DNA of 64,000 nucleotides from Meghimatium bilineatum (Eukaryota; Mollusca; Gastropoda; Stylommatophora; Philomycidae): positions 23,006,173 to 23,070,172 of the forward strand of contig CM067311.1 in NCBI GenBank assembly GCA_034231615.1, written 5' to 3'. Shown here in pieces: positions 811-60,499 of the stretch (position 1 is its first letter; each line of letters starts with the position of its first letter). The notes beneath the pieces were generated by a model. The model made no database searches. It saw only the letters and a list, made by a program, of their open reading frames with translations, and had not been told where the DNA came from. Made by a program: the position numbers and the translations under genes.

Positions 811-1035
811 ATGCCATGCACAAAACACAATGGAAACATGTCTGTATTTATAAATAGTTATGGTGCCTGCCCTGTGGCGGATGTTCAGGCAGGGACGTGC
901 AGGGCCCTATACCTCGAAAGGGCCCAATCTCAGTTACTGGAAGTCCTTCTCAATTGCCCCGAGGAGCCAGGAGGCAAGGGAATAGAGCTACTGGCCAAAC
1001 AAACGACCAATAAAAATAATGCACTGGAATGCTGA
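811..1035 (+). other. Short leader ORF of the LINE
   Basis: This 74-codon frame starts at an ATG and overlaps the endonuclease frame by 17 bases. It has no zinc knuckle, coiled coil or esterase signature that would mark a LINE ORF1 protein. It could be a degenerate ORF1 or untranslated leader. I would not treat it as a real protein. Confidence 0.2.
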
Positions 1036-2149
1036 GGGTGTCAACAATAAAAGAGATGATACAGCAAAAAATTGGAACTTGAAAATGTCCTCAGTGAAGA
1101 ACAAGTTAATATATGCTGTATCCAAGAAACACCTCAGCAGTGACATAGCCTTCAAAATCAGAGGCTACCAGTGCTACTGGTCTGACAGAAAGGACAGGCG
1201 AAAGAGTGGAATTCTGAAACTTGTTAAAAACAATATCAGCGCATGTCAGCTGGAAGTATATATGGAAGGGGCAGAATACCAGATGATCCACCTAAAAACA
1301 GACAGTGCAGAATTCCATCTCCTGAACTACTACTGCCCAAATGATAAACCATTGGCACTAGACACAATTCCAGACAAAGAGAGACTTATGGTGTGTGGTG
1401 ACTTCAACAGCCACTCTCAGAGCTTGGGCTATGATCATATCGACAAGAGAGGTGAGGAACTTGAGAGCTGGCAGGATGAAAATAATCTCATCCTTATTAA
1501 CCAGCCAGCAGACTCACCAACCTTCTACTCGAGAGCATGGCACACTACCTCTACACCAGACCTGGCATTCCACTCACCAGGCTTGGAATGGAACATCACA
1601 CATGTCGTTGGAAAGCAGCTTGGAGGTAGTGACCACAGACCAGTATTTCTGGAAATCCACAATGAATTTACCAAGGACAGCAGCACGCTCACTAGGTGGA
1701 ACTATAAAAGGGCAGACTGGAAAATGTACCAGCATTTAACCAGTGTTCTAACTAAGGACATGAACTTGGACAAAGACATCAATAGAGCAGTGAGTGAATT
1801 TAATAGATGTATACTACATGCTGCTAGTAAAACCATACCCAGGGGGGCACGCAAAAACTACAAACCCTACTGGAATGATGAACTGGAAAAGCTGCAAAAT
1901 GAGATGGAAACATCTACACAGCTGGCTGAGAACAGACCCAGCCAAGAACATCACAACAAATATCAGCAAACAAAGGCTAAATTTCAAAGAGCCAAGTTAC
2001 AAGCCAGATGGAGTAGCTGGAAAGGTAAAACAGAGTTGCTGAACCTAGAAAGAGATACTAGGAAATTATGGAAACTTGTAAAACAACTAAATGATGAAGG
2101 TACAGGGAGAAAACCAGGATCACACTTTATAAAGATAGAAACATTTTAA
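1019..2149 (+). pseudogene. LINE APE-type endonuclease domain (broken)
   Basis: In an intact element this domain nicks target DNA to prime reverse transcription. The 376-residue frame shows WNAEGV near the start, GDFN at residues 127-130, DLAF at about 181-184 and SDH at about 204-206, in the order expected of the exonuclease/endonuclease/phosphatase fold. The catalytic Glu motif (QET) is absent from this frame. It is encoded at 1123-1131 one frame over, inside a block (about 1070-1130) that lies between two compensating indels. After the domain come about 150 residues of basic linker. The frame then ends at 2149 and the RT continues in another frame from about 2110, so at least one more frameshift separates them. 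Confidence 0.8.
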
Positions 2150-2152
2150 CAG

Positions 2153-3771
2153 GTAAACATGCAGCTGATTACTTTGCAGATTCCTTTGCAGAAGACAATA
2201 ATGTCAAAGTCAGCCCAGACAAACAACAGGAGGTTCGAGAGAACCAGCAAAACATTGGACAAGGTGAACTTATACCTGAAGTCATGGAGGCACCAATCAC
2301 AATGAGAGAACTGGAGCATGCAATATCCAAATTGAAAATGAAAAAGTCCCCTGGAGCTGATGGAGTGTCCAATGAAATGATTAGAAACCTGGGAATTGCA
2401 GCAAGAGCAAAGCTACTGCAGATCTTTAACACAAGCTGGTCCACAGGTAATGTACCACAGGCGTGGAGAGAAGCAATAATGATACCACTCCTCAAATCAG
2501 GAAAAGATGGCAACACAGTCTCCAACTACAGACCCATCAGCCTCACAAGCTGTCTATGCAAAACAATGGAACGCATTATCAATCTTAGGATGCAGTGGTA
2601 CCTTGAAAGTGAAAACCTTCTGGTATCACAGCAAGCAGGTTTCAGACAGTGCTACTCTACTGAAGATCAGACAACCTACCTCTCCAAAGAGATTGAGGAT
2701 GCCTTCCAAGATAAGAAACTGGTACTAGCAGCATGGATAGACCTCAGGAAAGCATTTGATAAGGTCTGGAAAGAAGGGCTCCTAAAGAAATTGCGAAATT
2801 GCAGGGTTAGCTCAAGAATGTACAAATGGGTAAAAGCATACCTGCATAATAGAAGAGCCAGGGTACTATTAGATGGTCGCAAGAGCAAGAAAGTTCTACT
2901 GCATCATGGAGTCCCCCAGGGAGGAGTCCTGTCACCCACACTTTTCTTGGTTTACATCAATGACCTAGTTGCTGAACTACCACACGGGATCAAAGTGGCA
3001 ATGTATGCTGACGACCTGGTAATCTGATGCACGGAAGAACATGCAACAGTGGCCACTAAGCAAATACAAAGAGCTATCGATGCCCTAACCTTATGGGCAA
3101 ATAGATGGTGCGTCAGCATTAACACAGATAAGTGCAGCACTACACTCTTTACCCTCTCACCAAAATAAAAAGCTGGTCATATCAAGATAGATGGATAGCT
3201 CTTGAAAGAAGACAAACAACCCACATACCTCGGAGTTACTTTTGATGATAAGCTGACATGGAAGCAGCACATAAACAAAGCAACAACAAAAGCCAGGAGG
3301 AAGTTAGCTATCCTGAGAAAACTAAGTGGAACCACATGGGGAGCCAGTGGAAATATACTCAGTAAAGTTTACCAGCAAGGCATAAGACCACACCTGGAAT
3401 ATGGTTCAGCTGCGTGGTGTCCTGCATCAAACACCACATTACAAGATCTAGATAAAGTGCAAAACCAGGCACTTAGAATAATGTTGGGAGCAATGAAATC
3501 AACACCCATAGCAGAGATGCAGAAAATGGGAAGAATGCAAACACTTGGCGAACGCAGAGACACAAAAGTACTAATTCAAGCAGAAATGTTTCAGTGTATG
3601 CCAAGTCATCCAATGAAGGAAAGATTCCAAAATCTAGCAATGGGGCGACTGAAAAGGAGCAGCTTTATCCATCAAGCTAAATGACTCTGTAGACAACTTA
3701 CAGACCTACCTGAAGTTGACAGCTCCTTAAGGTCTGTACCAGAACAAACCCCGTGGAGTGAAAGCCATGGA
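2153..3771 (+). pseudogene. LINE reverse transcriptase domain (stops inside)
   Basis: RT motifs appear in order in one frame: SPGADGVSNEM, YRPISL, QAGFR, the D-containing block AWIDLRKAFD, GVPQGGVLSP and the catalytic YADD at 3004-3015, which is intact. A TGA follows three codons after YADD (3025-3027). TAA at 3166, TAG at 3196 and TGA at 3682 follow in the same frame, while the coding similarity continues (thumb region WANRWCVSIN, then YLGVTFDDKLTW and the helical segment ending before RNase H). The frame runs open upstream to about 2110, beyond the first ATG at 2284, as expected if RT is part of one polyprotein with the endonuclease. All three catalytic aspartates are present, so the loss of function comes from stops rather than active-site change. 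Confidence 0.85.
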
Positions 3772-9789: not shown

Positions 9790-9906
9790 ATGAGTCAGCT
9801 GTCAAGTCTCCTGCAAGATGCTCTAATTTCCACAGATCACGTTCAGCAGTGTGCCATTATTAGGAGACAAGATGGTGATATCAGAGCTAGTTCTGTCGGA
9901 TTTAAT
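9790..9906 (+). CDS. PFN4: PFN4 exon 1 (start codon)
   Basis: 39 codons, MSQLSSLL to SSVGFN. The ATG has A at -3, and the protein begins exactly where vertebrate profilin-4 begins, so I prefer it over the in-frame upstream ATG at 9745. The donor is GTGAGT directly after the GFN codons, leaving phase 0. Confidence 0.9.
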
Positions 9907-12900: not shown

Positions 12901-15900
12901 ACGGAGAGCGGAACACTTATGGGAATGTCGTGTATGCTATGATGCTAGTTTCTAATCGAGAACGGGGGGGGGGGGGGAATTTCACATCTTTTGGCTAAGA
13001 AACATAGTACTAAAAGTCATGTTCTGATCTCCTGTGGGAGGAGGTGTTGGTTTAAATCCTCTCCACTCTCCCTTAGATACGGGTTTTTTAACATATACTG
13101 TACAGAGCTACTGTAGCACAACTGACAACTTTATTTCTATTTCAGCTGTATCCTGATCAGGTAGCTCTACTTTTGGATGCCTTCAAGAATCCACCCCAGA
13201 CAAGAGAAGAAGGACTTTACTATGATGACAAACAGTACACGTGTATCAGGGCAGACTCCTACTCAATCTATGCCAAATGTGTAAGTCCTATAGCTATTCT
13301 TGCCCAATTAGATTTATCAACATCAGGTTTTGTGTTGAATGATTTGATAACCACAGGAATTACCAGCGATTAGCTAGCTCTTACTTCATATGTGCAATGG
13401 AGAGGTTTCTCAGCTTTCTTTCATACCCAGGAGACTTCACCTATCCGCTTTGCGCAATGTCTATATGGCTATATATGGGGGGGGGGGGTGTTCTACTAAA
13501 AAGGGGGGGGGGGTAAATGTGTTGGATGAAGGAAACCATCAAATTTTCTCAGAACGTTTTGTTTATGCATGTGGCTTTTACTGTTATCGAGTCCCATGCT
13601 ATTTGTCTTATTATCTAGTATCTTCTCTCTCAAGTGTAGAGATTGTGTTCAAGTGTGGAGATCTTGGAATGTAGAGTTTATATTTATCTTGAAATGTAGA
13701 GATTGTGTTTACCTTGGAATGTGTGCCATATGATTTATTCTTTCCAGAACGTTGTCTTCCTAATGAACTCCCAGAACCCTTCTCTGTCTTAGGCAGTGCG
13801 GCTTGAAATTTCCAACTACGGATTCATGTTATCTTTAATGTCGTCAGTCCAACATCTTCTTGGTCTGTCCTTTCTCGTCCTCCCAGGTGCTATGCCCTAA
13901 TTGGAATGTAGATGTTGCTTATGTCCAGGAAAGTAGAGAATAGTTTTACCCTGAAGTTTAGAGATTATTTGTAAGCTGGAATGTAGGGAATGCTTCTTTC
14001 ATGGAGTTTAGAAATCAAGTTTATCTTGAAATGTAGAAATTGCACCATCCATTAAGTGTAGAGATTAGGTTTACCTTGGAATGCAGGGTGTGCTGCTACC
14101 CTGGAGTTTAGTGATTATAGGGAAGAAACATCACCTGTTTGCAAACATCTGCAAGGTCATCTGATCATTACCTGATTCAGCATGTAATTATCTTAGAGTC
14201 TGGGTGGAATGAATTCATTTAGCTCCAAGAATATTACTCACATAGAGACCTACAATCGTTATACTTCATTTCTGTGTCTAAATTTTGTTTAAATATTTAT
14301 TATATGTTTAATTCATCATCCTCATTAAGTGACGTCTCCTCAACGAGGGTTGGCTGCAACGTATCTCCAACATCTCCTGTCTCTTGTCTTGGTGGTGCAC
14401 TCTGCTAGACTGTAACCTGTCCATCGTGTGATGTTACTCTCCCACTTGTATCTCTGCCTACCTCTTGCTCGCTTCCCTTTGACTTTACCCTCAAGTAAGG
14501 TCTTCAGTAAGGTGTCATGTCTTTTAATGTGTCCAAAGTATTTTATTTGCCTGATCTTTATTTCTCTTAGTAGTTCTTTCTTCATATTAAGTGTCTTTAG
14601 CACCTCTTTATTTGTTTTCTTCTCGTTCCATGATGTTCTCCCTATTCCCACATACCCACAAAGGCATCAATTTTGTCTTCTAATTGTTTATTTAGTGTCC
14701 ATGTTTCTGAGCTATATATTAATATGGAATAGATGTAGCATTTTATAATTCTCATTTTTAACTTGTTTGTAATTTGTTTAGATATTAATTTTTTCCTCAT
14801 GTCATTGAAGGTACTTTTAGCCATTCCTATTCTCCTTTTAACTTCTGTTTCACATCTGCCATCATTTGTGACTATGTGTCCAAGATATTGATACTGTTTT
14901 ACTTGTTGAAGTTTCTCTCCCTGTATGTTTATGTTTACCTCTTGTTCTTCTGTGTCTTTGCTGATTATCATGGTTTTTGTTTTTTGGATATTTATATCCA
15001 GTCCATATTCATTACTTGATTTATTGACTTGATCTATTAGTCTTTGTAGTTCATGTTCACTTTCTGCTAAAAGAACAGTGTCATCTGCATATCTAAGGTT
15101 GTTTATTATTTTCCCATTGATCTTGAGTCCTGGTATTTCTTCTATATTTTTAAAGATATTCTCTGTGTAGATATTAAATAGGCTTGGTGATAAAATGCAT
15201 CCTTGTTTTACCCCTCTTCTTATTTCTTATTGAGGCAGTTTGTTCCCAATATATATTTCTAATCAATCTGATGTCTTTTCCATCTATGCCTATTTTTTGA
15301 AGACATTTGATTAATTTTTCATGTTGGACTCCGTCAAAGGCCTTGCTGTAGTTTATGAAGCAAATATAGATAATTTTTTGGACTTCTATATATTTATCTA
15401 TCACTAGCCAGATACTCAGTATAGCTTCTCTGGTTCCTTTGTTTTTCCTAAAACCGAATTGTTCTTCACCGGCCTCCATGTCTATCTTGTTCTTAATTTT
15501 TTCATGTATTATCTTGAGGAAGTATTTTAGTTAGATGGCTCATTAGACTTATTGTTCTATATTCTGTACAGTCCACAGTCCTGGGCTTCTTAGGTAGTGG
15601 TATGAATATTGATGATGTTAGGTCTTTAGGTATATGGCCTATTTCGTATATGTCATTGCAAATTTCTGTGATAGTATCTACACCAAAGACTGTAGATTAG
15701 AGTTTTTATTATGTCTGCTATTATGTTGTCCAAGCCAGCTGCCTTTCCACATTTTATTAAATTTATTGCATGTTCTACTTCTGATTTCAGTATTGCTGGT
15801 CCATCATTGTTGTGTATTGTTGGTTTTTTATTCCGTCAAACAGTTCTGTCACATAATCTGCCCATCTTGTAAGTGCTTCTGTTTTATTGAATATTATTTT

Positions 15901-18900: not shown

Positions 18901-21900
18901 TGGCTCTTGTTCTCTTTCCTGGAACTTTTCTCTTCATGATTAATTTTTCTAAACTATTGTGTCTTTATATGTGTCCAAAATATGGGCTGTTGCCGATAAC
19001 ATTTCCAGTTTAACTGGGAATTGAACCTTGGATCACCCATGTGTTGGACAACATTGTAGCCTGTGATCCATCTCATAAAAAATCGCTAGGTTTGAACATT
19101 TCTTCTGTGGATGTTCAGAGATTATCACCAACCCTAGTAGTGTTACTGGTATGAACTATAGTAACAAACTGGGTGATGAAGTTTTGCTAATCACTGGATA
19201 TAGATGATAGTAACAAACTGGGTGATGAAGTTTTGCTAATCACTGGATATAGATGATATCACAAGAAAATCATCCTATTTTTCTCTTAGTTTATATTTAA
19301 TGATCCATTTTAAAGTATAAATATTTCAAGTCCAATGTATTTTCAATACTGGTAGTCATAATACATGTTTAGCGATTTTTAATATTTTCTATCATAAATT
19401 TAATCTTCATACCAATTTTGTGTTATTGCTGTCAGACATGTACACTTGCAAAAGAACAAGAGAGAAAGCTTACTACCTGTGAAATGAGATTTCTAAGAAA
19501 AGCAGTAAGCAAAACAAGAAGAGATCATGTGTGGAATGCAGAGATTACAAGAACAGTTGGAGCAACATATGTGGTCAAATATATTGAAAAACAGAGACTG
19601 AAATGGTTCAGCCACTTAATGAGAATGAATTCTTATTGGCCAGCAGCAAGAGCATACGTGAAAATATAAACAGCAAGATACAGAGGAAGACCAAGAAGAA
19701 GGTGGATTGAAGGAACAGACATGGTCCGAAAACTGGTTGTCATTCAATCTTTCAACACCTTACAGCAAAAGCAAATAAAAGACAATAGAAAGAATGTTTT
19801 CATTATATTAAAATAATACAGCGGATTACCTTTGTAGCACAGACCATTACGACAAGTTCCCTATTTAACAACACATTTCCCAATTAATGTTATTGTTTAT
19901 ACTGTATATATCATATTCCTGTTATTACATAAATATTTCATTGGTTTGAACCACGTTGTTATCATGAAATTTGACTTTATTATTTCAGGGCAGCAGTGGT
20001 CTCGTATTGGCCAAGACTGGGTCAATGCTCATTATGGCGACATACACAGAAAACATGTACCCAAGTGTGTGTGTGGAGGCTGTAGAAAAACTTGGTAAGT
20101 TAGACTTCACAATACAGCAGAATTCCTCTATAGTGTATTCTTTTATAACAATTTCCTTATATAACAACACTTTTCAAAATCCTCAATTATATTTATTCTA
20201 TATTATTTGTACTGTATATAGTGCATTTCTGTTATTACATGTTGCTATAACAGAATTCCACTGTAACAGCTTTGATGAATTCTGAAATTATTACACCATG
20301 CTCATCTGTGTGTTGCCAGGGTCCAAAAGTTGAGCAAAAAATAGCAATAAAAGGGTTTAAAAGCAGTAGAAGATTGACTTCACTGTACTCGGTTTCCCAT
20401 ATGTACTCCGTGACTCTCAATGAAGCGGCACACCGCCTGCCGAGAGTACCACTCATAGCACATAACTGTAGCTTCAAGTGATAATCCACAGGGATCTCCG
20501 AAAAAAATCCACCTTAAAAACAAGACGACATGAGCCTGTGACCTCTTGAACACAAGGCGAACAGCTTAACCACTACGCCAGGGAGATCCCCACGTAGCAT
20601 TACTGTTACCTAAAAAATAGCAATACTGTTACCTAACATTCATGTCATAGGAGTTGACTATGTAATCCCATAAAGGGTCAAAATTACCCAGGGACCATGC
20701 TGAAATTGGATGTATCAGGCCAAAAAGTGAAGAAATCAAGTAGTTGGAACAATAGTGGAGTTATGTGTTGTTAGAATATTAGAGAATCCTGTAGTTGGAA
20801 CACTGGTGGAGTTATGTGTTGTTAGAATATTAGAGAATCCTGTAGTTGGAACATTGGTGGAGTTATGTGTTGTTAGAATATTAGAGAATCCTGTAGTTGG
20901 AACATTGGTGGAGTTATGTGTTGTTAGAATATTAGAGAATCCTGTAGTTGGAACATTGGTGGAGTTATGTGTTGTTAGAATATTAGACGAATCCTGTAGT
21001 TGGAACACTGGTGGAGTTATGTGTTGTTAGAATATTAGAGAATCCTGTAGTTGGAACATTGGTGGAGTTATGTGATCTTAGAATATTAGGAGAATCAAAT
21101 GTTTTGATTAGAGTAATGGTGAAGTCTTGTATTGTCAAAGTTAACTAGCATAGATTAGTAATTCCATTCTTTTTTCAAGCTGCTACACCTTTCTATAAAA
21201 GCCAATGTGATCCTTGACTCCCATTTTATAGAATCAAATTATTTGTAACCTTGATAAATTTAAAGAGGTTGTTTATTAATGTAAAAAATAGATTGTTCTG
21301 TATAATTGCAACTATATGCTTATTTAATGCAATTATTGAAATTATAACTCGTTAACAAGCTTCAAAATTTGGGATTGAGTTTTTGTTAATACCAATCTTA
21401 TGTCATTCTCAATATTCAATCTGTTTCTTGTTTTAGATTCAAATGTGTGTGTCATGTGACATATTCTCTCAAGAACATTGTCCTCCTAATGAACTCCGTG
21501 AACCCCTCTCTGTCTTGGGTGATGCGATTGCATTTTCCGACAACGTATTCATGCTATCTTTAATGTTGTCAGTCCATCGTCTTCTTGATCTGCCTTTCCT
21601 CCTCCTCCCAGGTGCCCTACCCTCCATTATTTATCTTTCTTAACAGTTGTCTCTTTATATGACCAAACAGGTGTAGTTTTCTTTTTGCTATTCTTCTTCT
21701 TCTGCATTCAGCATCTGTGGTCATGCTATATTGTCAGGCCTGTCATCAAGACGAAGTCCACTGTCTTCTCCAGGTCAGAGCGGCTGCCCCATAGCTTTTG
21801 CCTCAAGTCTGTATCTTCTGGCCAGGTCTGCTGTCTCTGCTATTTGTATGTTGGGCAGTCCTGAAGTATGTTTTTTGCTATTGTGTTTAGTAACCAACAC

Positions 21901-24900
21901 TGGAATGTGTTTATAATAGATTCAAATGTAGAAGCATTGAAATCTGCTCTCACAGAAAAGTGTAGAAGTACAAGGGGTAAACATAATGAAATTGTATTAA
22001 AAATAAATATTTGTTTATTTTACTGTTTTGGCCAGCAACTGCAAAGAAAACCTTTCACAGCTGCATTTGGGGTCACAAATCATGGGTTGGAAACCTGTAG
22101 CTTAGATAATTGGTGTTTTGAACATTAAAGATAGAGTTAGGAGACATTATGATGTGCTCAGTTTTCCAGTTCATCAGTCAAGTATATCAAATTAAGATCA
22201 GTGTTTCAGAAAGTTGTTGATTCTTGAGATCTTCTGCTTCTGTCACATCTCTAAAGATATCCATGAACAACATAAAGAAATCCTCACAAACCTCCCAAAT
22301 GAAATTGAAACACTAATGGACTTTGAAGAGCCAGGCAATAGTCTCCAGAATGTCTCCATAATAACACAGGTTCCTGGAATAATTAATAAGGAATACCAAA
22401 CTCCACCTCAACTAAAAGCATTGACACTGGAGATGATAGAAATAAAATACAATCCCAAGGATTGGACACATGTCTACACAGATGGATCGGCAGAAGGAGC
22501 AGTAAGGAATAGAGGAGGTGGAATTTTTATAAGACTCAAAGATGGAAAGACAATATCAAAAGCTTTTCCAACTGGGAAATGCTCCTCTAATTTTAGAGCA
22601 GAAGCAGTTGCACTCCATCAAGCACTGAAAGCCTTCACTGAACCAGGACTGCCAAGACCAAAGAAGATAGCCATATTCACAGATTGCAGATCCCTACTGG
22701 AATCAATCCAGAGCAACAGAAACGAAAGCCTTCTGTACAACATCAGACATGAGCTAAGACAGTTCCAAAAATCAAAAGCTATTGCCCTTCAGTGGATACC
22801 ATCACACTGTGGAATCATGGGAAATGAGAAAGCGGATGCTCTGTCAAAGGCAGGAAGTGAAATGGAGCAACACAGACACCCACTGTCTTACGGAGAAGTA
22901 AAAACAATAATCCGCAACACATACTCAGCAAAGTGGAAGAAAGAAACGGAAGGGGAATACGAACATGTTGCAATACATCTCCTCCAAAGATATCAACAGA
23001 CCACAATATTTTGCCTTAGAACAGGCCACTGCAGACTGTTGGGTCACCTTTATCGATTAAGGATCTCATACACAGATGAATGTCCATGTGAATTCGGAAC
23101 CCAGACTCCAGAACACATACTTCAGGACTGCCCAACATGCAAAGACAACAGACCTGGCCAGAGGATACAGACTTGAGGCAAAAGCTATGGGGCAGCCACT
23201 CTGACCTGGAGAAGACAGCGGACTTCGTCTTGATGACAGGTCTGACGGTATAGCATGACCACATGCTGAACGCAGAAGAAGATGGGTTGGAAACCTGTAG
23301 CTTAGATAATTGGTGTTTTGAACATTAAAGATAGAGTTAGGAGACATTATGATGTGCTCAGTTTTCCAGTTCATCAGTCAAGTATATCAGATTAAGATCA
23401 GTGTTTCAGAAAGTTGTTGATTCTTGAGATCTTTCTGGAACATGCACTTTGTTCTCTCATCTATGTATATCTTTCTCTGAACAATTTACATTGTCCATCT
23501 CAGCCTCTTCTTCATCATTTCATAGTGTACCATATCTTTGACTAAACCTATGGAATTTGTAAATAAATACCAGAAGATTCAATCAGGTTTTTTTAGTGTC
23601 ACTTTCTAGAATGTGTTTTTAGATGTTCTTGTCTTCGTTCATGCATAGGCCTATTCACATGCATGTGTTACAGGCACACTTTACATATTTCCTATAAGAG
23701 AGCATAAGACAAATGTGTATGGTATGTAAGAAATAATGAATCTCGCAAGCATACAAGAATCATTACTTTCAATGGTAAAAGGACAAAAACTTGCATAGTT
23801 TGGACATATACGCTGAAGTGATTCTGTCAAAAATGATTTTCAATGGTACATCTTTCCTGTACCATTTTCTGTACATCTTTCCTGTAACATCTTTCCTGTA
23901 CCATGATTTTCAATGGTACATCTTTCCTGTACCATCTGTCCTAGGACAGATGACACGCATTTTCAAGAACAAAAATGTAAACATAGACACTAAAGTTGCA
24001 TTATACAAGACTATTATTATTCCATCACTATGCTACCAGAGCCAAACCTGGACAATGACAGCACAAGACAAAAGAAAAATAGTGACAACAGAAATGACAT
24101 GTCTACGAAGAATACTCGGAGTGTCATTAAGAGATAGAATTAGAAACAATAACATCAGACAGATAACCAAAACAATACCAGTATTGGAACACATCAAAAG
24201 ACAACAGATCAAGTGGTTTTCACACGCTTCCAGACTACCGACATATAGCATGCCACAAATAGCCATGACACATAGACATAACGGTTATAAAGCCAGAGGC
24301 ACACCATGTAAAAGATGGATCACAGAAATCAAAGAAGCCACAGGAACAAGCTTACAAACAGCGCACAAGAAGGCCATCTCCAGAGAACTCTTCCACCCCT
24401 GACGCTGCAAGGCAAAAAGGGACACAGCGTATAGATAGATCTTTCCTGTGGTAGAGGGTGAGGGGCAAAAAGTCAAATAAAATCATGGGCAGACAATATC
24501 AAAGACTGAACAGGTCAAGATTTCCACACTCATCCGCATTGCTGGAGGACTATGTCTGTTGACACATCCTATGATCCTGATCGGTTATGGGTGGATTTAC
24601 ACTTCTCTTTCAGTTGATTATTTTGAAGAAAATTTAAACAAGCATGGACCATTAGGCCTTCATGAAATTTGTGACTAGAGAATATATGTGTGGAGTGTTT
24701 TGACTAAAATCGCACCGTTATATATTACATATCATAGGAAATGATTAGGGAGGTATTAGATTAGGGAGGTATTAGATTAGGGAGGTATTAGATTAGGGAG
24801 GTATTAGATTAGGGAGGTATTAGATTAGGGAGGTATTAGATTAGGGAGGTATTAGATTAGGGAGGTATTAGATTAGGGAGGTATTAGATTAGAGTTGGCT

Positions 24901-25136
24901 GTCTTTTCTACCACAGGATCAAAATAACCCAGAAGCCATGCTGAAGTCAGATGTGTCAATTTGAAGGTCACAGATATCACAGCTAAGCTGTAAACCAGGA
25001 CACAAAACATTCCGTCCTCTATGCTATTTCCAGCTAGAGTTTTAGAATGAAAACAGAAGTTGTTATTTACATATGTTTATTCATGCATATTCACAATTCT
25101 ATTTCAGCTGATTACTTCAAAGAAAAGGGGATATGA
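9790..25136 (+). CDS. PFN4: Profilin-4 (four exons, 128 residues)
   Basis: The coding exons are 9790-9906, 13146-13280, 19989-20094 and 25108-25136. The joins are phase 0, phase 0 and phase 1, and together they give 387 bases ending in TGA. The conceptual protein begins [19 protein letters not shown], contains [21 protein letters not shown] and [18 protein letters not shown], and ends ADYFKEKGI. This follows vertebrate profilin-4 along its whole length (about 129 residues). Profilin-4 is the divergent profilin: in mammals it is testis-enriched, linked to acrosome and manchette formation, and reported to bind phospholipids rather than actin or poly-proline. The same role here is inference. All introns have GT-AG borders with good pyrimidine tracts (3.2, 6.7 and 5.0 kb) and are full of transposon debris. 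No frameshift or stop is seen in the exons, so the gene looks intact. An alternative last exon lies at 24614-24678. Confidence 0.92.
10018..11010. other. PFN4 intron 1, 5' part: no gene; homopolymer-rich transposon-like stretch
   Basis: From about 10540 to 10990 the sequence has long runs of C, T, A and G. A TTGTTGACGTC motif near 10682 resembles the ends of the elements at 54460-54765 and 61960-62197. Low-confidence remnant of a small DNA transposon. Confidence 0.35.
11023..11288 (+). mobile_element. tSINE-1, tRNA-derived SINE, complete copy with 12-bp target-site duplication
   Basis: Flanks are perfect TATGGCATGCAT repeats (11011-11022 and 11289-11300). The 5' part resembles a tRNA: box A TAGCTCAGTGG, box B GGTTCATTCCC. 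The body contains GGTACCGGATTAATCCGG, AGACTGCGAGGGAGAGGAG and GATCGCTAACATCTCACA, and ends CTATGGGTTACTTTAC. Other copies are at 48636-48904 and 60650-60870 (minus). Confidence 0.92.
11590..12955 (+). mobile_element. Decayed LINE: RT thumb, RNase H and C-terminal region
   Basis: In PFN4 intron 1. The first frame (11604-11936) reads [22 protein letters not shown], a conserved block after the RT palm. Around 12440 the frames give [11 protein letters not shown] and SLADSAV, the RNase H C-terminal box, and after the nested insertion the frame ends [19 protein letters not shown], a C-terminal Cys block. The upstream RT and endonuclease are missing. A FAM-A element splits it at 12568-12724. Confidence 0.75.
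12568..12724 (+). mobile_element. FAM-A short retroposon (157 bp) nested in a LINE, 8-bp target-site duplication
   Basis: Flanked by AATTCATT at 12560-12567 and 12725-12732. It begins TCTCCGCCGAAGA and ends GAATGAACGATGAAGAAGAAGG. Removing it mentally puts the LINE frames on either side (..VINS and [10 protein letters not shown]..) back in register. Confidence 0.85.
12964..12979. repeat. Poly(G) tract
   Basis: About 14 consecutive G at the end of the LINE. Confidence 0.9.
13146..13280 (+). CDS. PFN4: PFN4 exon 2
   Basis: 45 codons between the acceptor TTTATTTCTATTTCAG and donor GTAAGT. It encodes [18 protein letters not shown] and [20 protein letters not shown], the profilin-4 central sheet. 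Phase 0 at both ends. Confidence 0.92.
13400..13465 (+). repeat. Dispersed repeat fragment
   Basis: A short stretch (GAGGTTTCTCAGCTTTCTTT, ATACCCAGGAGACTTCA) recurs near 38395-38475 and, reversed, near 39580-39685. Class unknown. Confidence 0.45.
13470..13516. repeat. Two poly(G) tracts
   Basis: Two runs of ten or more G about 20 bases apart in intron 2. Confidence 0.85.
13625..14120. repeat. Degenerate minisatellite, split by a LINE fragment
   Basis: Units of about 36 bp around TTGAAATGTAGAGATTGTG and TTTACCTTGGAATG. A LINE 3' fragment at about 13730-13905 interrupts it. Confidence 0.6.
13730..13905 (-). mobile_element. LINE (RTE/CFDP2-like) 3' fragment, minus strand
   Basis: It shares TTCTTTCCAGAACGT and CTTCCTAATGAACTCC with the 3' ends at 21447 and 57950. 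The minus strand encodes remnants of the C-terminal FRKTTFWKE tail of that family. Confidence 0.65.
14311..17147 (-). mobile_element. Near-full-length LINE with APE endonuclease and RT, decayed, minus strand
   Basis: Inside PFN4 intron 2. Reading the minus strand from 17147: [10 protein letters not shown] (endonuclease start), [13 protein letters not shown] and SDHNPV (16715-16290), then a linker. RT blocks follow: FGFRKNKGT and INYSKAFD near 15479-15340, [11 protein letters not shown] near 15095, YLGHIVTND, and a C-terminal region with [13 protein letters not shown]. It ends with the [15 protein letters not shown] tail and an ATC-rich 3' end. This is the type often annotated as craniofacial development protein 2-like (RTE-related). 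YADD is intact but the frames are broken in many places. No RNase H. Confidence 0.85.
17148..17844. other. PFN4 intron 2: AT-rich, no feature
   Basis: No repeat unit, LINE motif or coding frame seen. Confidence 0.5.
17845..18000 (+). mobile_element. LINE 3' fragment
   Basis: The frame reads [14 protein letters not shown], then [18 protein letters not shown] and a GAAGAAGAAG tail. A minus-strand copy of the same end is at 39685-39850. Confidence 0.7.
18342..18455 (-). ncRNA. Two decayed hammerhead-ribozyme-like motifs, as in Penelope-like elements
   Basis: On the minus strand two motifs 85 bases apart read TTGATAAAG, a short stem-loop, then (G/A)(T/A)(C/T)GAAATGT. This is the arrangement of hammerhead cores (CUGAUGA, stem II, GAAA) in the terminal repeats of Penelope-like elements and retrozymes. 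The core carries substitutions (T for C, A for G), so it should not be active. The match is by eye. Confidence 0.4.
18740..18990 (-). mobile_element. LINE C-terminal fragment, minus strand
   Basis: Minus-strand frames give [16 protein letters not shown] and [17 protein letters not shown], the region after RT in the RTE-type LINEs here. Confidence 0.6.
19155..19258. repeat. Tandem duplication, two 52-bp units
   Basis: Two nearly identical units around AGTAACAAACTGGGTGATGA. Confidence 0.9.
19400..19800 (+). mobile_element. LINE C-terminal fragment
   Basis: The frame from 19418 gives [31 protein letters not shown] and WFSHLMRMN, then a basic KPRRRWIE-like stretch in another frame. Ends approximate. 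Confidence 0.65.
19848..19950. mobile_element. Fragment of the mariner-type small element
   Basis: The order TATTTAACAACACATTT, CCAATTAATGTTATTG, ACTGTATAT and GTTATTACATAA is shared with the fuller copy at 20115-20263. Confidence 0.5.
19989..20094 (+). CDS. PFN4: PFN4 exon 3
   Basis: 35 codons plus one base, between acceptor TTTATTATTTCAG and donor GTAAGT. It encodes [11 protein letters not shown] and [19 protein letters not shown], the most conserved part of profilin-4. It ends in phase 1, so the next exon must supply two bases. Reading through the donor gives an unrelated extension into a mariner-type element. Confidence 0.92.
20115..20263. mobile_element. Mariner-type small inverted-repeat element (MITE), 149 bp
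   Basis: Flanked by TA on both sides. The terminal inverted repeats are CAGCAGAATTCCTCTATA and, from the right, CAGTGGAATTCTGTTATA (imperfect). TA duplication and CAGTG termini are typical of Tc1/mariner-derived MITEs. It sits 20 bases after the PFN4 exon 3 donor. Confidence 0.7.
20315..20742 (+). mobile_element. FAM-B SINE-like copy, split by a tRNA-derived SINE
   Basis: The left part (GTTGCCAGGGTCCAAAAGTT, GAGCAAAAAATAGCAATA) and the right part (from about 20612, with GGAGTTGACTATG and CATGCTGAAATTGGATGT) align to one FAM-B unit once 20350-20611 is removed. Its 3' end is lost in the minisatellite at 20742. Confidence 0.7.
20350..20611 (-). mobile_element. tRNA-derived SINE, minus strand, 14-bp target-site duplication
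   Basis: Flanked by AAAAAATAGCAATA at 20336-20349 and 20612-20625. On the minus strand it has a tRNA-like head: GGGATCTCCC, box A TGGCGTAGTGG, and a weak box B AGGTCACAGGCTC. The body differs from tSINE-1, so this is a separate SINE family. Confidence 0.75.
20742..21090. repeat. Minisatellite, 51-bp unit, about seven copies
   Basis: Unit contains CCTGTAGTTGGAACATTGG and GGAGTTATGTGTTGTTAG. Because 51 is a multiple of three, open frames exist on both strands (17-residue period); these are not proteins. Confidence 0.92.
21100..21430. other. PFN4 intron 3: no feature
   Basis: AT-rich intron sequence. Nothing recognised. Confidence 0.5.
21447..21916 (-). mobile_element. LINE (RTE/CFDP2-like) 3' fragment with 13-bp target-site duplication
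   Basis: Flanked by perfect TAGATTCAAATGT at 21434-21446 and 21917-21929. The plus strand begins with the shared 3' end CATGTGACATATTCT..CAAGAACAT, also at 57945. A second LINE fragment is nested at 21693-21870. Confidence 0.8.
21693..21870 (-). mobile_element. I-type LINE 3' fragment nested in another LINE fragment, 11-bp target-site duplication
   Basis: Flanked by TTTTTGCTATT at 21682-21692 and 21871-21881. It is the reverse complement of the last ~180 bases of the LINE at 22234-23281 (shared CTTCAGGACTGCCCAACAT and GCAGAAGAAG end). Confidence 0.85.
22082..22233. repeat. 152-bp direct repeat, left copy
   Basis: Matches 23282-23433 at an offset of exactly 1200 with one difference seen (A/G at 22190 against 23390). 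The two copies flank a 1048-bp LINE fragment. Confidence 0.92.
22234..23281 (+). mobile_element. 5'-truncated I-type LINE (RNase H and C-terminus) between long direct repeats
   Basis: A 320-codon frame (22214-23176) covers a well-kept RNase H domain: [25 protein letters not shown] and [18 protein letters not shown] supply the catalytic D, E, D, H and [14 protein letters not shown] and [17 protein letters not shown] form the C-terminal Cys/His block. A frameshift near 23145 moves the tail ([20 protein letters not shown]) to another frame. The element ends TGAACGCAGAAGAAG, the terminus shared by FAM-A and FAM-B, so its family is a candidate mobiliser of those SINEs. Confidence 0.88.
23282..23433. 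repeat. 152-bp direct repeat, right copy
   Basis: See 22082-22233. Starts at the base after the LINE 3' terminus, as a target-site duplication would. Confidence 0.92.
23820..23945. repeat. Short local repeats
   Basis: Repeated CATCTTTCCTGTACCAT and CATCTTTCCTGTAACAT with a TTTTCAATGGTA spacer, directly upstream of a LINE fragment. Confidence 0.75.
23930..24445 (+). mobile_element. LINE (RTE-like) C-terminal fragment
   Basis: The frame reads [49 protein letters not shown] and [16 protein letters not shown], ending at 24402. Fragments of the same family lie at 26690-27035 and 63440-63775. The end has a GATAGATAGATC tail. Confidence 0.8.
24614..24678 (+). CDS. PFN4: Alternative (duplicated) last exon of PFN4
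   Basis: Follows the acceptor ACTTCTCTTTCAG. In the phase required by exon 3 it reads (V)DYFEEN, then [14 protein letters not shown] and TAG. The first residues parallel the canonical end ADYFKEKGI at 25108. The acceptor regions also resemble each other (TTACACTTCTCTTTCAG against TTCACAATTCTATTTCAG), which suggests an old exon duplication. The extra 14 residues lie in sequence that recurs, reversed, near 27060-27165. Use would give a 140-residue protein. Whether it is spliced in is unknown. Confidence 0.5.
24722..25045 (+). mobile_element. FAM-B SINE-like copy with an internal 16-bp minisatellite
   Basis: Left edge CATATCATAGGAAATGATTAGG and right part AGAGTTGGCTGTC, AGCCATGCTGAAGTCAGATG follow the FAM-B order. 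Between them the AGGGAGGTATTAGATT segment is expanded about nine times. The copy lies between the two candidate PFN4 last exons. Confidence 0.7.
24742..24892. repeat. Minisatellite, 16-bp unit, nine copies
   Basis: Perfect units of AGGGAGGTATTAGATT. The unit corresponds to a FAM-B internal segment (AGGGAGGTTATGGGAT in the copy at 39078-39365). Confidence 0.95.
25108..25136 (+). CDS. PFN4: PFN4 exon 4 (canonical last exon, stop codon)
   Basis: Acceptor CAATTCTATTTCAG, then two bases completing the split codon (G|CT, Ala), then DYFKEKGI and TGA. The length and Tyr/Lys/Gly pattern match the profilin-4 C-terminus, making a 128-residue protein. Confidence 0.85.
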
Positions 25137-25235
25137 TAAAGTTTCAAGGGATATTCCTACATCGTATGAGTCATCCTAGTCTGTGATCCTTGACCTTTTC
25201 AAGCAAGGCAGCATTTGTTTATCATTATGAGAAAT

Positions 25236-25247
25236 AATAAAAATAAA
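25236..25247 (+). promoter_or_regulatory. Candidate polyadenylation signals for PFN4
   Basis: Two adjacent AATAAA hexamers about 100 bases after the stop codon. In AT-rich DNA such hexamers also occur by chance. Confidence 0.45.
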
Positions 25248-25429
25248 AACATACATAACATTAAGGCTTCACGAAAATACACAGAAAACTTTCAAATGAG
25301 ATTGTGAGATCTGATGACAATGCTATATCTTAGTAAATGAGTATTGTGAAGTTGTGAGGAATTACTGAAAGAAATCAGAAGGTAACAAGCAAGATAGAAC
25401 CTGGTCCTTTCAGTTAGTTGACACCAAAT

Positions 25430-26600
25430 TTTGATTTCAGGAAAGGTATGGGATGCTATTTTTGTGCTACGATATCTAAGTGAAAAGACACTTGAATACG
25501 ACCTACAATTAAACATCGCCTTCATCGACCAAGAAAAGGCATTTGACAGAGAAAAACTGTGGCTAATTTTGGAGTGCTATGGAGTACATAAACAATTACT
25601 AAACAACATAAGAGCTTTATACAAAAACTGCCAGAGTGTAATTATACCTACTGAGTACACAACAGACCCATTTGAAATAAAAACAGGTGTTAGACAAGGC
25701 TGCGGACTATCACCACTTCTGTTCATAACATACGTGGACTAAAGAAGCAGACACAAGAAAAAAATTCACCCCTGCAGAAGCATCAAATGAAGCTCACTCA
25801 ATGAACTGCTATTTGCAGATAATCAATGTTTAATATACAAATCTGAAAACAAATTACAGCGGCACACACACACACTTGCTCCATTCAACCTGCAAACAAC
25901 ACAACATGAAACTAAACACATCTAAAACAGAGACTAGGAAAATAAGCAGAGCACCAGGCCAGTTAAATGTATCTGTCAATGGTAAAAAACTAAAGCAAGT
26001 CCCAGAGTTTAAATACCTAGGAAGCATATTTACGGAGGATCGTAAACTCAACAGAGAGATTGAAACAAGGGTGCCAAAAAGCCAATGCTGTAACACCCAT
26101 CAATCTTCATGGCTACAAAAAGACAATTGATAAACAGTATTTTTATACAAACTCTGTTTTACCAATATAAAACATGACCCTTGACAAAGACGCTAGCGAA
26201 AAAGATCACAGTTTGAGAAATGAGATGTTTGAGGAAAGCTATAAATGTCACGAGAAGAGACCACTGAAGAAATAAAGATATTGGGAAAGAAGTAGACTAT
26301 CTCAAGTCAAGACTACATTGAGAGGCAGCAAACTAGATGGTTTGGTCACGTCGTGAGAAGGAACCTGGGCAACCAGCCCTTCGTGCATACATCAGCAGAA
26401 GACAATGCTACAAGACACGAAGAATACCAAGAACTAGATGGGCAGAGACAATCAAAGAAACATTAGACCTGGGTTCATCACAGCCAATGCAACTCAAATG
26501 GCCAAAGACAAGAAACTCAGAATCCCTTATTTCCCCCCCCCCCCCCCCCCCAATGATGCATTACGGCACAAGTGGAAATGACAAAAGATAGATAGACACC
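25430..26600 (+). mobile_element. Decayed LINE (RTE-like): RT palm to C-terminus
   Basis: RT blocks IAFIDQEKAFD (25431-25742), GVRQGCGLSPLLF, then LLFADNQCLIY near 25807 where the second catalytic Asp of the YADD-type motif is Asn. QVPEFKYLGSIFTEDRKL follows in a third frame, then RWFGHVVRR and a C-terminal tail. A run of about 20 C at 26531-26550 interrupts the end. The 3' end is GATAGATAGA. Confidence 0.82.
26531..26550. repeat. Poly(C) tract
   Basis: About 20 consecutive C inside the LINE C-terminal region. Confidence 0.9.
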
Positions 26601-27976: not shown

Positions 27977-28909
27977 TTAGTTTTTCTGGCAGTCCATGGT
28001 ATTCTCAGCATTCTTCTGTAGAACCACATCTCTGTTGCCTCCAATCTCCCACTTTCCAGTTTGTTTATTGTCCAAGACTCGCACCCATATGTTAGTATAG
28101 GGGTTATATAGCACTGCATAACTCTTTCTCACCTCTAATGACAAGGTCATATTACACAGTATATTTTTCATTTTTCTGAATGTTGTTTTTGCCTGTCCTA
28201 TTCTGCATCTTATTTCTGTTGAACTTCTTCCATCTGCTGTAATAATTGAACCTAGATATTTGAATTGGTGGACCTGTTTTAATACTATATCATTCACTAT
28301 GATCTTGCAAGGTGTGTTATTTTCTTTCTTTGAAATAACCATTTCTTCTGTTTTCTTGATATTTAGGAAGAGGCCTTTCTCTTTGCTTTCTGTGACTACT
28401 ACTTTAATTAAGTTTTGAAGGTCTTCCTCACTTTTTGCAATCAGAACAGTGTCATCCGTATATCTCAAATTATTTATGTTATGTCCTCCCACTGATATTC
28501 CTGGGATATCTACTATTGCACGCAATATGTTTTCACTGTATAGAGAGAACAGGTCTGGTGAAAGCACGCATCCCTGTCTGACTCCTTGTTTTATTTGTTG
28601 AAAAGGGCCAAATTGATTTCCTACTCTTATTCCTGTTATCATCTCATTTTTCTTATATAATAATGTTGTATCTTGGTTGTAATGCAATTCTATTTCTGTG
28701 CATTTCTTGTTCAGCCAGCTTTCTTTTGCTATTTTGCATTTCTCTCGTATCTCCTTATGTATTTTCTGATATTCCACTATCTTGTGTTTATTTTTCCTTC
28801 TGGTGCTCATCAATTCTAATATTTCTTCTGTCATCCATTTTTGTTTTGATGTATGTTTTACTTTTGGTATTATCTCTTTAGATGTTTGGTTTATCGACTG
28901 TTTTAGCAT
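27977..28909 (-). pseudogene. LINE RT frame with internal deletion, 310 residues
   Basis: The frame goes from a pre-RT linker (KWMTEEILELM, RRKNKHKIVEYQ) straight into the middle of the RT palm (ITGIRVGNQFGPF, IKQGVRQGCVLSP), so the fingers and the first catalytic Asp block are missing while the frame stays open. The YADD box reads YTDD. YLGSIITADGRSSTEI follows. The C-terminus continues in another frame (28119-27730) with CESWTINKLESGRLEATEM-like residues and FFGHFMRQAG. A non-autonomous deletion derivative. Confidence 0.82.
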
Positions 28910-56171: not shown

Positions 56172-56582
56172 TTCTGAAGTTATAAATAAGGTCTAATACT
56201 GTCTAAAATGTGCTTTTTTCTAGTGAATCTGACTTTAAGACTCATTATAACACTAACATACGGTGTATAAAGTCCAGGTGACACGCATATGAACTAAAGG
56301 AACTTTTCACCTGCAAACAGAACATCGGAAGTTACATTTTGTGCTATTTTCTGTCACTGAAAAGCCCACAAAAGACGTTATAATTTATGTTTCATTATTT
56401 CACACACAATGAGCGCCCCTAAGATACTGCTGCTGATACCTTTCCAAACGAATAGTACATGGGGTACATACAAACATGTATTATTATTGTTGTGCTATAA
56501 GGAATATAATCCACAATCTATTGCGATGATAGATGTGACTCGTAAGGCCAATCTGAGCCAAGAAGTCTTTCACAATATACAC

Positions 56583-57518
56583 AGGTACATGGAATCACAT
56601 ACACGGGTGCATGGAATCATATACACAGGTGCATGGAATCATATACACAGGTGCATGGAATCATATACACAGGTGCATGGAATCATATACACAGGTGCAT
56701 GGAATCATATACACAGGTGCATGGAATCATATACACAGGTGCATGGAATCATATACACAGGTGCATGGAATCATATACACAGGTGCATGGAATCATATAC
56801 ACAGGTGCATGGAATCAATCATATACACAGGTGCATGGAATCAATCATATACACAGGTGCATGGAATCATATACACAGGTGCATGGAATCATATACACAG
56901 GTGCATGGAATCATATACACAGGTGCATGGAATCATATACACAGGTGCATGGAATCATATACACAGGTGCATGGAATCATATACACAGGTGCATGGAATC
57001 ATATACACAGGTGCATGGAATCATATACACAGGTGCATGGAATCATATACACAGGTGCATGGAATCATATACACAGGTGCATGGAATCATATACACAGGT
57101 GCATGGAATCATATACACAGGTGCATGGAATCATATACACAGGTGCATGGAATCATATACACAGGTGCATGGAATCATATACACAGGTGCATGGAATCAT
57201 ATACACAGGTGCATGGAATCATATACACAGGTGCATGGAATCATATACACAGGTGCATGGAATCAATCATATACACAGGTGCATGGAATCATATACACAG
57301 GTGCATGGAATCATATACACAGGTGCATGGAATCATATACACAGGTGCATGGAATCATATACACAGGTGCATGGAATCATATACACAGGTGCATGGAATC
57401 ATATACACAGGTGCATGGAATCATATACACAGGTGCATGGAATCATATACACAGGTGCATGGAATCATATACACAGGTGCATGGAATCATATACACAGGT
57501 ACATGGAATCATATACCC
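56583..57518. repeat. Minisatellite, 22-bp unit, about 42 copies
   Basis: Nearly perfect ATACACAGGTGCATGGAATC units. Three are lengthened by a 4-base insertion (AATC repeated) at about 56814, 56840 and 57262. All three forward frames are open through the array because the unit has no stop in any frame and 22 steps through all frames. Confidence 0.97.
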
Positions 57519-59609: not shown

Positions 59610-59752
59610 CTGAATGTCTGTTTTATGTAGTTGTTACTGAATGTCATGTCTTTATATTTTCTGTTTATGTAGTTGTTACTGAATGTCATGTCTTTATATT
59701 TTCTGTTTATGTAGTTGTTACTGAATGTCATGTCTTTATATTTTCTTATTCG
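59610..59752. repeat. Minisatellite, 42-bp unit, three copies
   Basis: TGTAGTTGTTACTGAATGTC then ATGTCTTTATATTTTCTG. The 14-residue periodic ORF here is incidental. Confidence 0.92.
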
Positions 59753-59755
59753 TCT

Positions 59756-60364
59756 TACTGCCCAGTATATGTTATAGTCGATAACTAATTGTGTGGTCTT
59801 ACTGCCCAGTATATGTTATAGTCGATAACTAATTGTGTGGTCTTACTGCCCAGTATATGTTATAGTCGATCACTAATTGTGTGGTCTTACTGCCCAGTAT
59901 ATGTTATAGTCGATAACCAATCGTGTGGTCTTACTGCCCAGTATATGTTATAGTCGATAACCAATCGTGTGGTCTTACTGCCCAGTATATGTTATAGTCG
60001 ATAACCAATCGTGTGGTCTTACTGCCCAGTATATGTTATAGTCGATAACCAATCGTGTGGTCTTACTGCCCAGTATATGTTATAGTCGATAACCAATCGT
60101 GTGGTCTTACTGCCCAGTATATGTTATAGTCGATAACCAATCGTGTGGTCTTACTGCCCAGTATATGTTATAGTCGATAACCAATCGTGTGGTCTTACTG
60201 CCCAGTATATGTTATAGTCGATAACCAATCGTGTGGTCTTACTGCCCAGTATATGTTATAGTCGATAACCAATCGTGTGGTCTTACTGCCCAGTATATGT
60301 TATAGTCGATAACCAATCGTGTGGTCTTACTGCCCAGTATATGTTATAGTCGATAACCAATCGT
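59756..60364. repeat. Minisatellite, 44-bp unit, about 14 copies
   Basis: CTTACTGCCCAGTATATG, TTATAGTCGATAACCAATCG. The first copies have AACTAATTG in place of AACCAATCG, so the array shows an older edge and a homogenised core. Confidence 0.96.
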
Positions 60365-60499
60365 GGCAAAGCAAGTTTACTTTTTTGTGTATTTTTAAAG
60401 TAGTTGCTTGTTTACCCTTAAACATCTTGCTCATTTTGCATTTTGTTTGGTTAATTTAGCTCACTTTTTTCATCATGCGATAGAGAAATATTTATGTGT

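Follow-up and report, generated by a model that had tools for sequence, protein, structure and literature searches.

A 38-bp block of a profilin-4-like gene (PFN4-like gene), comprising the splice acceptor and the opening six codons of its last exon, was present twice in the window, the whole 64,000-bp stretch analyzed here (C14:23006173-23070172, in a 1.61-Gb genome with 32 contigs). The block is a true but partial duplication of an acceptor and an exon start. The upstream copy is probably a non-selected by-product of a short local duplication, with a cryptic acceptor that would be unused or used at a low level. A functional second C-terminus for the PFN4-like gene is possible but is not supported by the sequence.

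The gene lies on the plus strand and has four coding exons, with GT at all three donors of the gene model. Coding exon 1 (9790..9906) starts from the ATG and ends in phase 0, exon 2 lies at 13146..13280, and exon 3 lies at 19989..20094, the last base of which opens a split codon. All three were placed by tblastn and the gene model, and exons 2 and 3 were also matched by Pfam Profilin in a search of the same genome. The canonical last coding exon (25108..25136) encodes ADYFKEKGI and ends with the stop TGA. It was aligned to human PFN4, to amoeba profilins and to Pfam Profilin, in which it reached position 126 of 127. Tandem poly(A) signals, AATAAA AATAAA (25236..25247, starting at 25236 and 25242), lie 3' of the canonical stop on the plus strand. 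With a human PFN4 query, exons 1, 2 and 3 showed 44, 53 and 60% identity by tblastn, and the canonical tail aligned with GDYLRKKG of the same sequence. The name PFN4 was given from that human sequence and is putative. The canonical 128-residue form matched Profilin (PF00235) with 128.5 bits over residues 5-127, above the cut-off of 25. The 128-residue protein also matched 27 distinct sequences of solved structures, and the C-terminal VEKLADY was common to it and the best three of these matches.

Eight Profilin places were listed in the genome, two of which were exons of the PFN4-like gene. The other six loci were distant from it (best E 0.11), and a link of the PFN4-like gene to other profilin genes was rejected. 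Other profilin genes of the same genome, on C17 and C25, were single open frames that cover the full domain, and for each of them the contig carried another, partial match 12-16 kb further on.

The upstream copy of the block (24595..24632) and the downstream, canonical copy (25089..25126), both on the plus strand, consist of 19 intron and 19 exon bases. The match was gapless, and 31 of 38 positions were identical (16 of 19 on the intron side and 15 of 19 on the exon side). A distance of 494 bp separates the acceptors at 24614 and 25108, which share one phase and each lie behind a pyrimidine-rich TTTCAG, and the split codon is completed as G+TT (V) at the former and as G+CT (A) at the latter. 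The joined products in the gene model are 140 residues long via 24614 and 128 residues long via 25108. These data agree with an earlier note on this DNA, which had described two in-phase pyrimidine-rich AG acceptors at this distance, each followed by a hydrophobic residue and DYF, with similar upstream intron ends and with products of these two lengths.

We compared this match with what two AT-rich acceptors might share by chance. The acceptors of the PFN4-like gene are indeed alike, and the exon 2 acceptor agreed with the query block at 22 of 38 positions. However, when 20095-25088 was shuffled 1000 times with its dinucleotides preserved, no shuffle attained 30/38 (the maximum was 27), and the best other site in the window, on either strand, gave 23/38. 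Chance likeness is thus strongly disfavoured and extremely improbable, and we conclude that the two copies share descent. A pyrimidine-rich YAG followed by an in-phase DYF arose in 1 of 1000 shuffles, and a looser version of the motif in 14 of 1000.

The extent of the duplication was determined along the 494-bp diagonal. Outside the block there were 2-8 matches per 20 positions, while inside it there were 16 and 15. The homology ends at 24632, within the asparagine codon of DYFEEN, and by diagonal and local alignment the original stop and 3' UTR were absent from the duplicated block. A longer duplicated segment was also considered and rejected; local alignment of 24450-24745 against 24960-25330 gave only the 38 bp as the best match. 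A search of the window and 26 loci (284 kb together) at E 0.05 found no match to the region 25127-25440 apart from itself. Hence the duplicated terminal exon proposed in the earlier note is partly right: the duplication is real, but it comprises only the acceptor and six codons and not the whole exon.

Next to the upstream acceptor, the gene model gives a possible alternative coding end with the stop TAG (24614..24679, plus strand), which after 24632 has no homology to the canonical exon. Neither AATAAA nor ATTAAA was found in 24614-25107, nor from there to 25236; rarer hexamers in 24614-25107 were TTTAAA (24633), AATATA (24681), ACTAAA (24703), AAGAAA (24626) and AATGAA (25046). There was no convincing donor in 24600-25108, where the best donor-like site, at 24967 and past the upstream stop, scored 4 on a 7-point scale on which the three real donors of the gene score 6, 4 and 5. 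A cassette exon spliced onward to 25108 was rejected for lack of a good donor between the acceptors. Since 24614-25107 holds neither of the two poly(A) signals and no convincing donor, 24614, if used, would be an alternative acceptor of one long last exon, of about 650 bases if begun there, and not the start of a second last exon. The two competing last exons of the earlier note would therefore be two acceptors of one last exon. Homologous alternative last exons would show homology across the exons and a 3' end of their own for each; here the homology covered only 19 exon bases, and the upstream exon start had no AATAAA or ATTAAA before 25108. The pyrimidine tract of the upstream acceptor (13/17) was not weaker than that of the canonical one (12/17), and other sites in the same intron had tracts that were equal or better, up to 16/17. 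A branch-site-like sequence, CTGAT, was seen by eye near -34 of the upstream acceptor.

The proteins predicted from the two acceptors were also compared. The upstream 140-residue form matched Profilin (PF00235) with 123.4 bits over residues 5-126, which is above the cut-off of 25, and reached profile position 125 in comparison with 126 for the canonical form. One paper describes Arg135 as a conserved residue of the known human profilins, among them PFN4, and PFN4 as keeping one tyrosine of the poly-proline site and binding neither poly-proline nor actin (PMC2694148). By position in our own alignment, the Arg135 site would be K in the canonical copy and E in the upstream copy, with the tyrosine in both.

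These features bear on whether 24614 is a working alternative acceptor that rivals 25108, with one poly(A) site serving both; its product would be an isoform of 140 residues in which the helix end is reversed in charge and the tail is repeat-derived. The acceptor, the phase and the frame are intact, the upstream tract is no weaker, and the profilin domain is aligned almost to the same profile position. PFN2, also a profilin, sets a precedent in having homologous alternative exons (PMC4465641). However, the shortness of the homology, the missing poly(A) signal, a tail that is mostly dispersed repeat and the presence of comparable duplications elsewhere in the sampled DNA all stand against it, and we consider both this reading and its product unlikely. 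That the profilin-4 gene acquired a further working acceptor through the duplication, with exonisation of the adjoining repeat DNA, so that a germ-line isoform would carry E for K at a conserved basic position and a new 14-residue tail, is quite improbable.

The upstream copy is flanked by repeats on both sides. On its left, the 3' end (24449..24597, plus strand, right edge placed by eye) of repeat A, a dispersed LINE-like repeat, stops right before the copy. The genome search for repeat A listed at least 41 matches, self included, which is a lower bound, as 40 of 1754 candidates were scored. Among seven copies compared, five stop at 24573-24596 and one at 24539, while the seventh aligns to 24624 with several gaps beyond 24597. 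The upstream block as part of the LINE-like repeat was therefore rejected, since six of the seven copies stop earlier, and the gapped extension of the seventh was taken as chance. Another LINE end lies upstream of repeat A, at 24440, where several copies stop.

On the right of the upstream copy, a piece of a dispersed repeat (24632..24686, plus strand) has matches on contig 2 and, in reverse, at 27162-27130 and 27122-27083. The segment 24632-24664 was 97% identical to the contig 2 copy over 33 bp and 91% identical to 27162-27130, and 24647-24686 was 82.5% identical to 27122-27083. A genome-wide search with 24595-24742 listed, beside self, one place, that on contig 2 (24632-24664); this count is a lower bound, as the search missed the 27162 copy. 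The contig 2 and 27162 copies are 82% alike over 62 bp, longer than the stretch they have in common with 24632, and their gapped alignment continues to the left, so that the 24632/24633 junction joins PFN4 sequence to the inside or the edge of a dispersed repeat. Most of the predicted extra 14-residue tail is encoded by this repeat piece. Further to the right lies an abundant dispersed repeat (repeat F, 24726..25062, plus strand, edges from nhmmer coverage), with 29 non-self matches in the window and the sampled loci. It holds a tandem array at 24743-24892, in which a 16-bp unit, GATTAGGGAGGTATTA, is present in 9.4 copies with 100% match, an expansion inside repeat F.

As to origin, one exon may have been split by an insertion, the 38-bp copies being a target-site or staggered-break duplication around an insert at 24633-25088. 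The upstream copy would then keep the original intron side, and the downstream copy the original stop and poly(A) signals. This model concerns origin and is compatible with a functional or a non-functional reading of the upstream copy. The copies abut the interval 24633-25088 exactly, and repeat F lies inside it. In addition, the right-hand repeat piece begins at the block end, whereas its two other copies align with each other further left, with gaps, so that the 24632/24633 junction looks like a breakpoint. However, repeat F ends at about 25062 and not at 25088, which leaves about 26 bp before 25089. Two parts of the interval, of about 93 bp (24633-24725) and 26 bp (25063-25088), are not repeat F, so no single element was shown to fill the interval. 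The repeat piece is 97% like its contig 2 copy over 33 bp, but the block copies are only 82% alike, and one event is not evident from these values. A length of 38 bp is also long for a target-site duplication. We therefore regard the insertion as a tentative and somewhat unlikely origin. A target-site duplication for repeat F, suggested by an 8-base string, was dropped, because the string overlaps the repeat's own start.

Other elements were recorded in the window. A LINE truncated at its 5' end occupies 23941-24440; its copies have a common 3' end near 24440, and one of them is 98% identical over 178 bp. TCTTTCCTGT follows this LINE and, by eye, units like it stand before the LINE, in the manner of a target-site duplication. 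LINE remains were found at 1019-3027, 22214-23176, 25431-25742 and 27977-28909. Of eight open reading frames scanned, five had matches to families of endonuclease, reverse transcriptase or RNase H, the match at 25431-25742 being below the curated cut-off. Three plus-strand frames are open for 305-372 aa owing to 42 copies of a 22-bp unit at 56575-57516, and these frames look like by-products of the array. Long arrays were also present at 59752-60365 (a 44-bp unit, 14 copies) and at 20740-21096 (a 51-bp unit, 7 copies).

We also determined how often such duplications occur. In the window and 20 loci (264 kb), isolated short direct-repeat pairs were collected whose arms did not exceed 100 bp, with a gap of 60-1000 bp and a score at least as high as that of the PFN4 pair. 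There were 22 such pairs, the PFN4 pair included. Thirteen of these lay inside tandem arrays and three more had arms matching elsewhere in the sampled sequence, which left six, namely the PFN4 pair and five others, or one further pair in about 50 kb. Taking the arms as 80 bp, we estimated that a given acceptor would be struck in roughly 0.15% of cases; at this rate, such duplications should be fairly numerous in a genome where acceptors are very many. The filtered rate (five others in 264 kb) is below the raw count of 22, and this counts a little against the ordinary, non-functional reading. The repeat origin of the tail speaks for that reading, and the odds were kept unchanged.

The seven differences between the two copies were examined for signs of decay. 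None is disabling, and the AG, the frame and DYF are intact in the upstream copy; two of the four exon differences are synonymous. Seven random substitutions left these three features intact in 8.5% of 20000 trials, a figure that is biased because the copy was picked for having DYF, and such survival does not show selection.

A non-selected local duplication thus remains our preferred explanation. A duplication of about 38 bp would have copied the acceptor and the first six codons of the PFN4-like last exon, and the copy, 494 bp upstream, now has the end of a LINE-like repeat on one side and a piece of a different dispersed repeat on the other. If the spliceosome picked 24614, the transcript would extend as far as the poly(A) signals common to both acceptors (25236/25242), and the protein would keep DYF of the C-terminal helix, carry E in place of the canonical K, and gain 14 residues mostly from repeat DNA. 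This reading is supported by the restriction of the homology to 24595-24632, the repeats on both sides, the lack of an own poly(A) signal or a convincing donor, and comparable duplications elsewhere. It is also favoured by Pfam, which prefers the canonical end (128.5 vs 123.4 bits). We counted against it the absence of a disabling difference, a tract that is not weaker, the branch-site-like CTGAT, and the lower frequency of such duplications after filtering. On balance, we infer that the upstream copy has no selected function.

The case shows how a short local duplication plants an in-phase second acceptor before a last exon and so supplies raw material for alternative C-termini. Use of the upstream acceptor would make this a small, datable example of repeat DNA turned into a C-terminus; if the acceptor is unused, the case would be an ordinary trap for gene prediction. 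Loss of PFN4 in the mouse is reported to impair manchette formation and acrosome biogenesis (PMC9481974). A duplicated PFN4 acceptor was not found in full-text literature searches or in passages from PMC2694148 and PMC9481974, and a literature search found no paper on tandem exon duplication joined with an alternative last exon.

The locus can be compared with three known systems. With animal PFN4 genes it shares the exon matches and the likeness of the tail to human PFN4. With tandem exon duplication and mutually exclusive homologous exons it has in common two similar in-phase units of acceptor and exon start in tandem, but the duplicate here falls short of a whole exon and may be inert scrap. 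In vertebrate profilin 2, the alternative exons are the C-terminal ones. PFN2 is listed as a homologous substitution for which two structures have been solved, and the substitution may affect binding of proline-rich peptides (PMC4465641). As with PFN2a/PFN2b, one region of a profilin gene here has two alternatives that are homologous. However, both PFN2 forms have structures, whereas here six codons are duplicated, and the upstream copy lacks a 3' end of its own and is a putative acceptor; by analogy, PFN2 may serve as a precedent, and not as evidence, for the PFN4-like gene.
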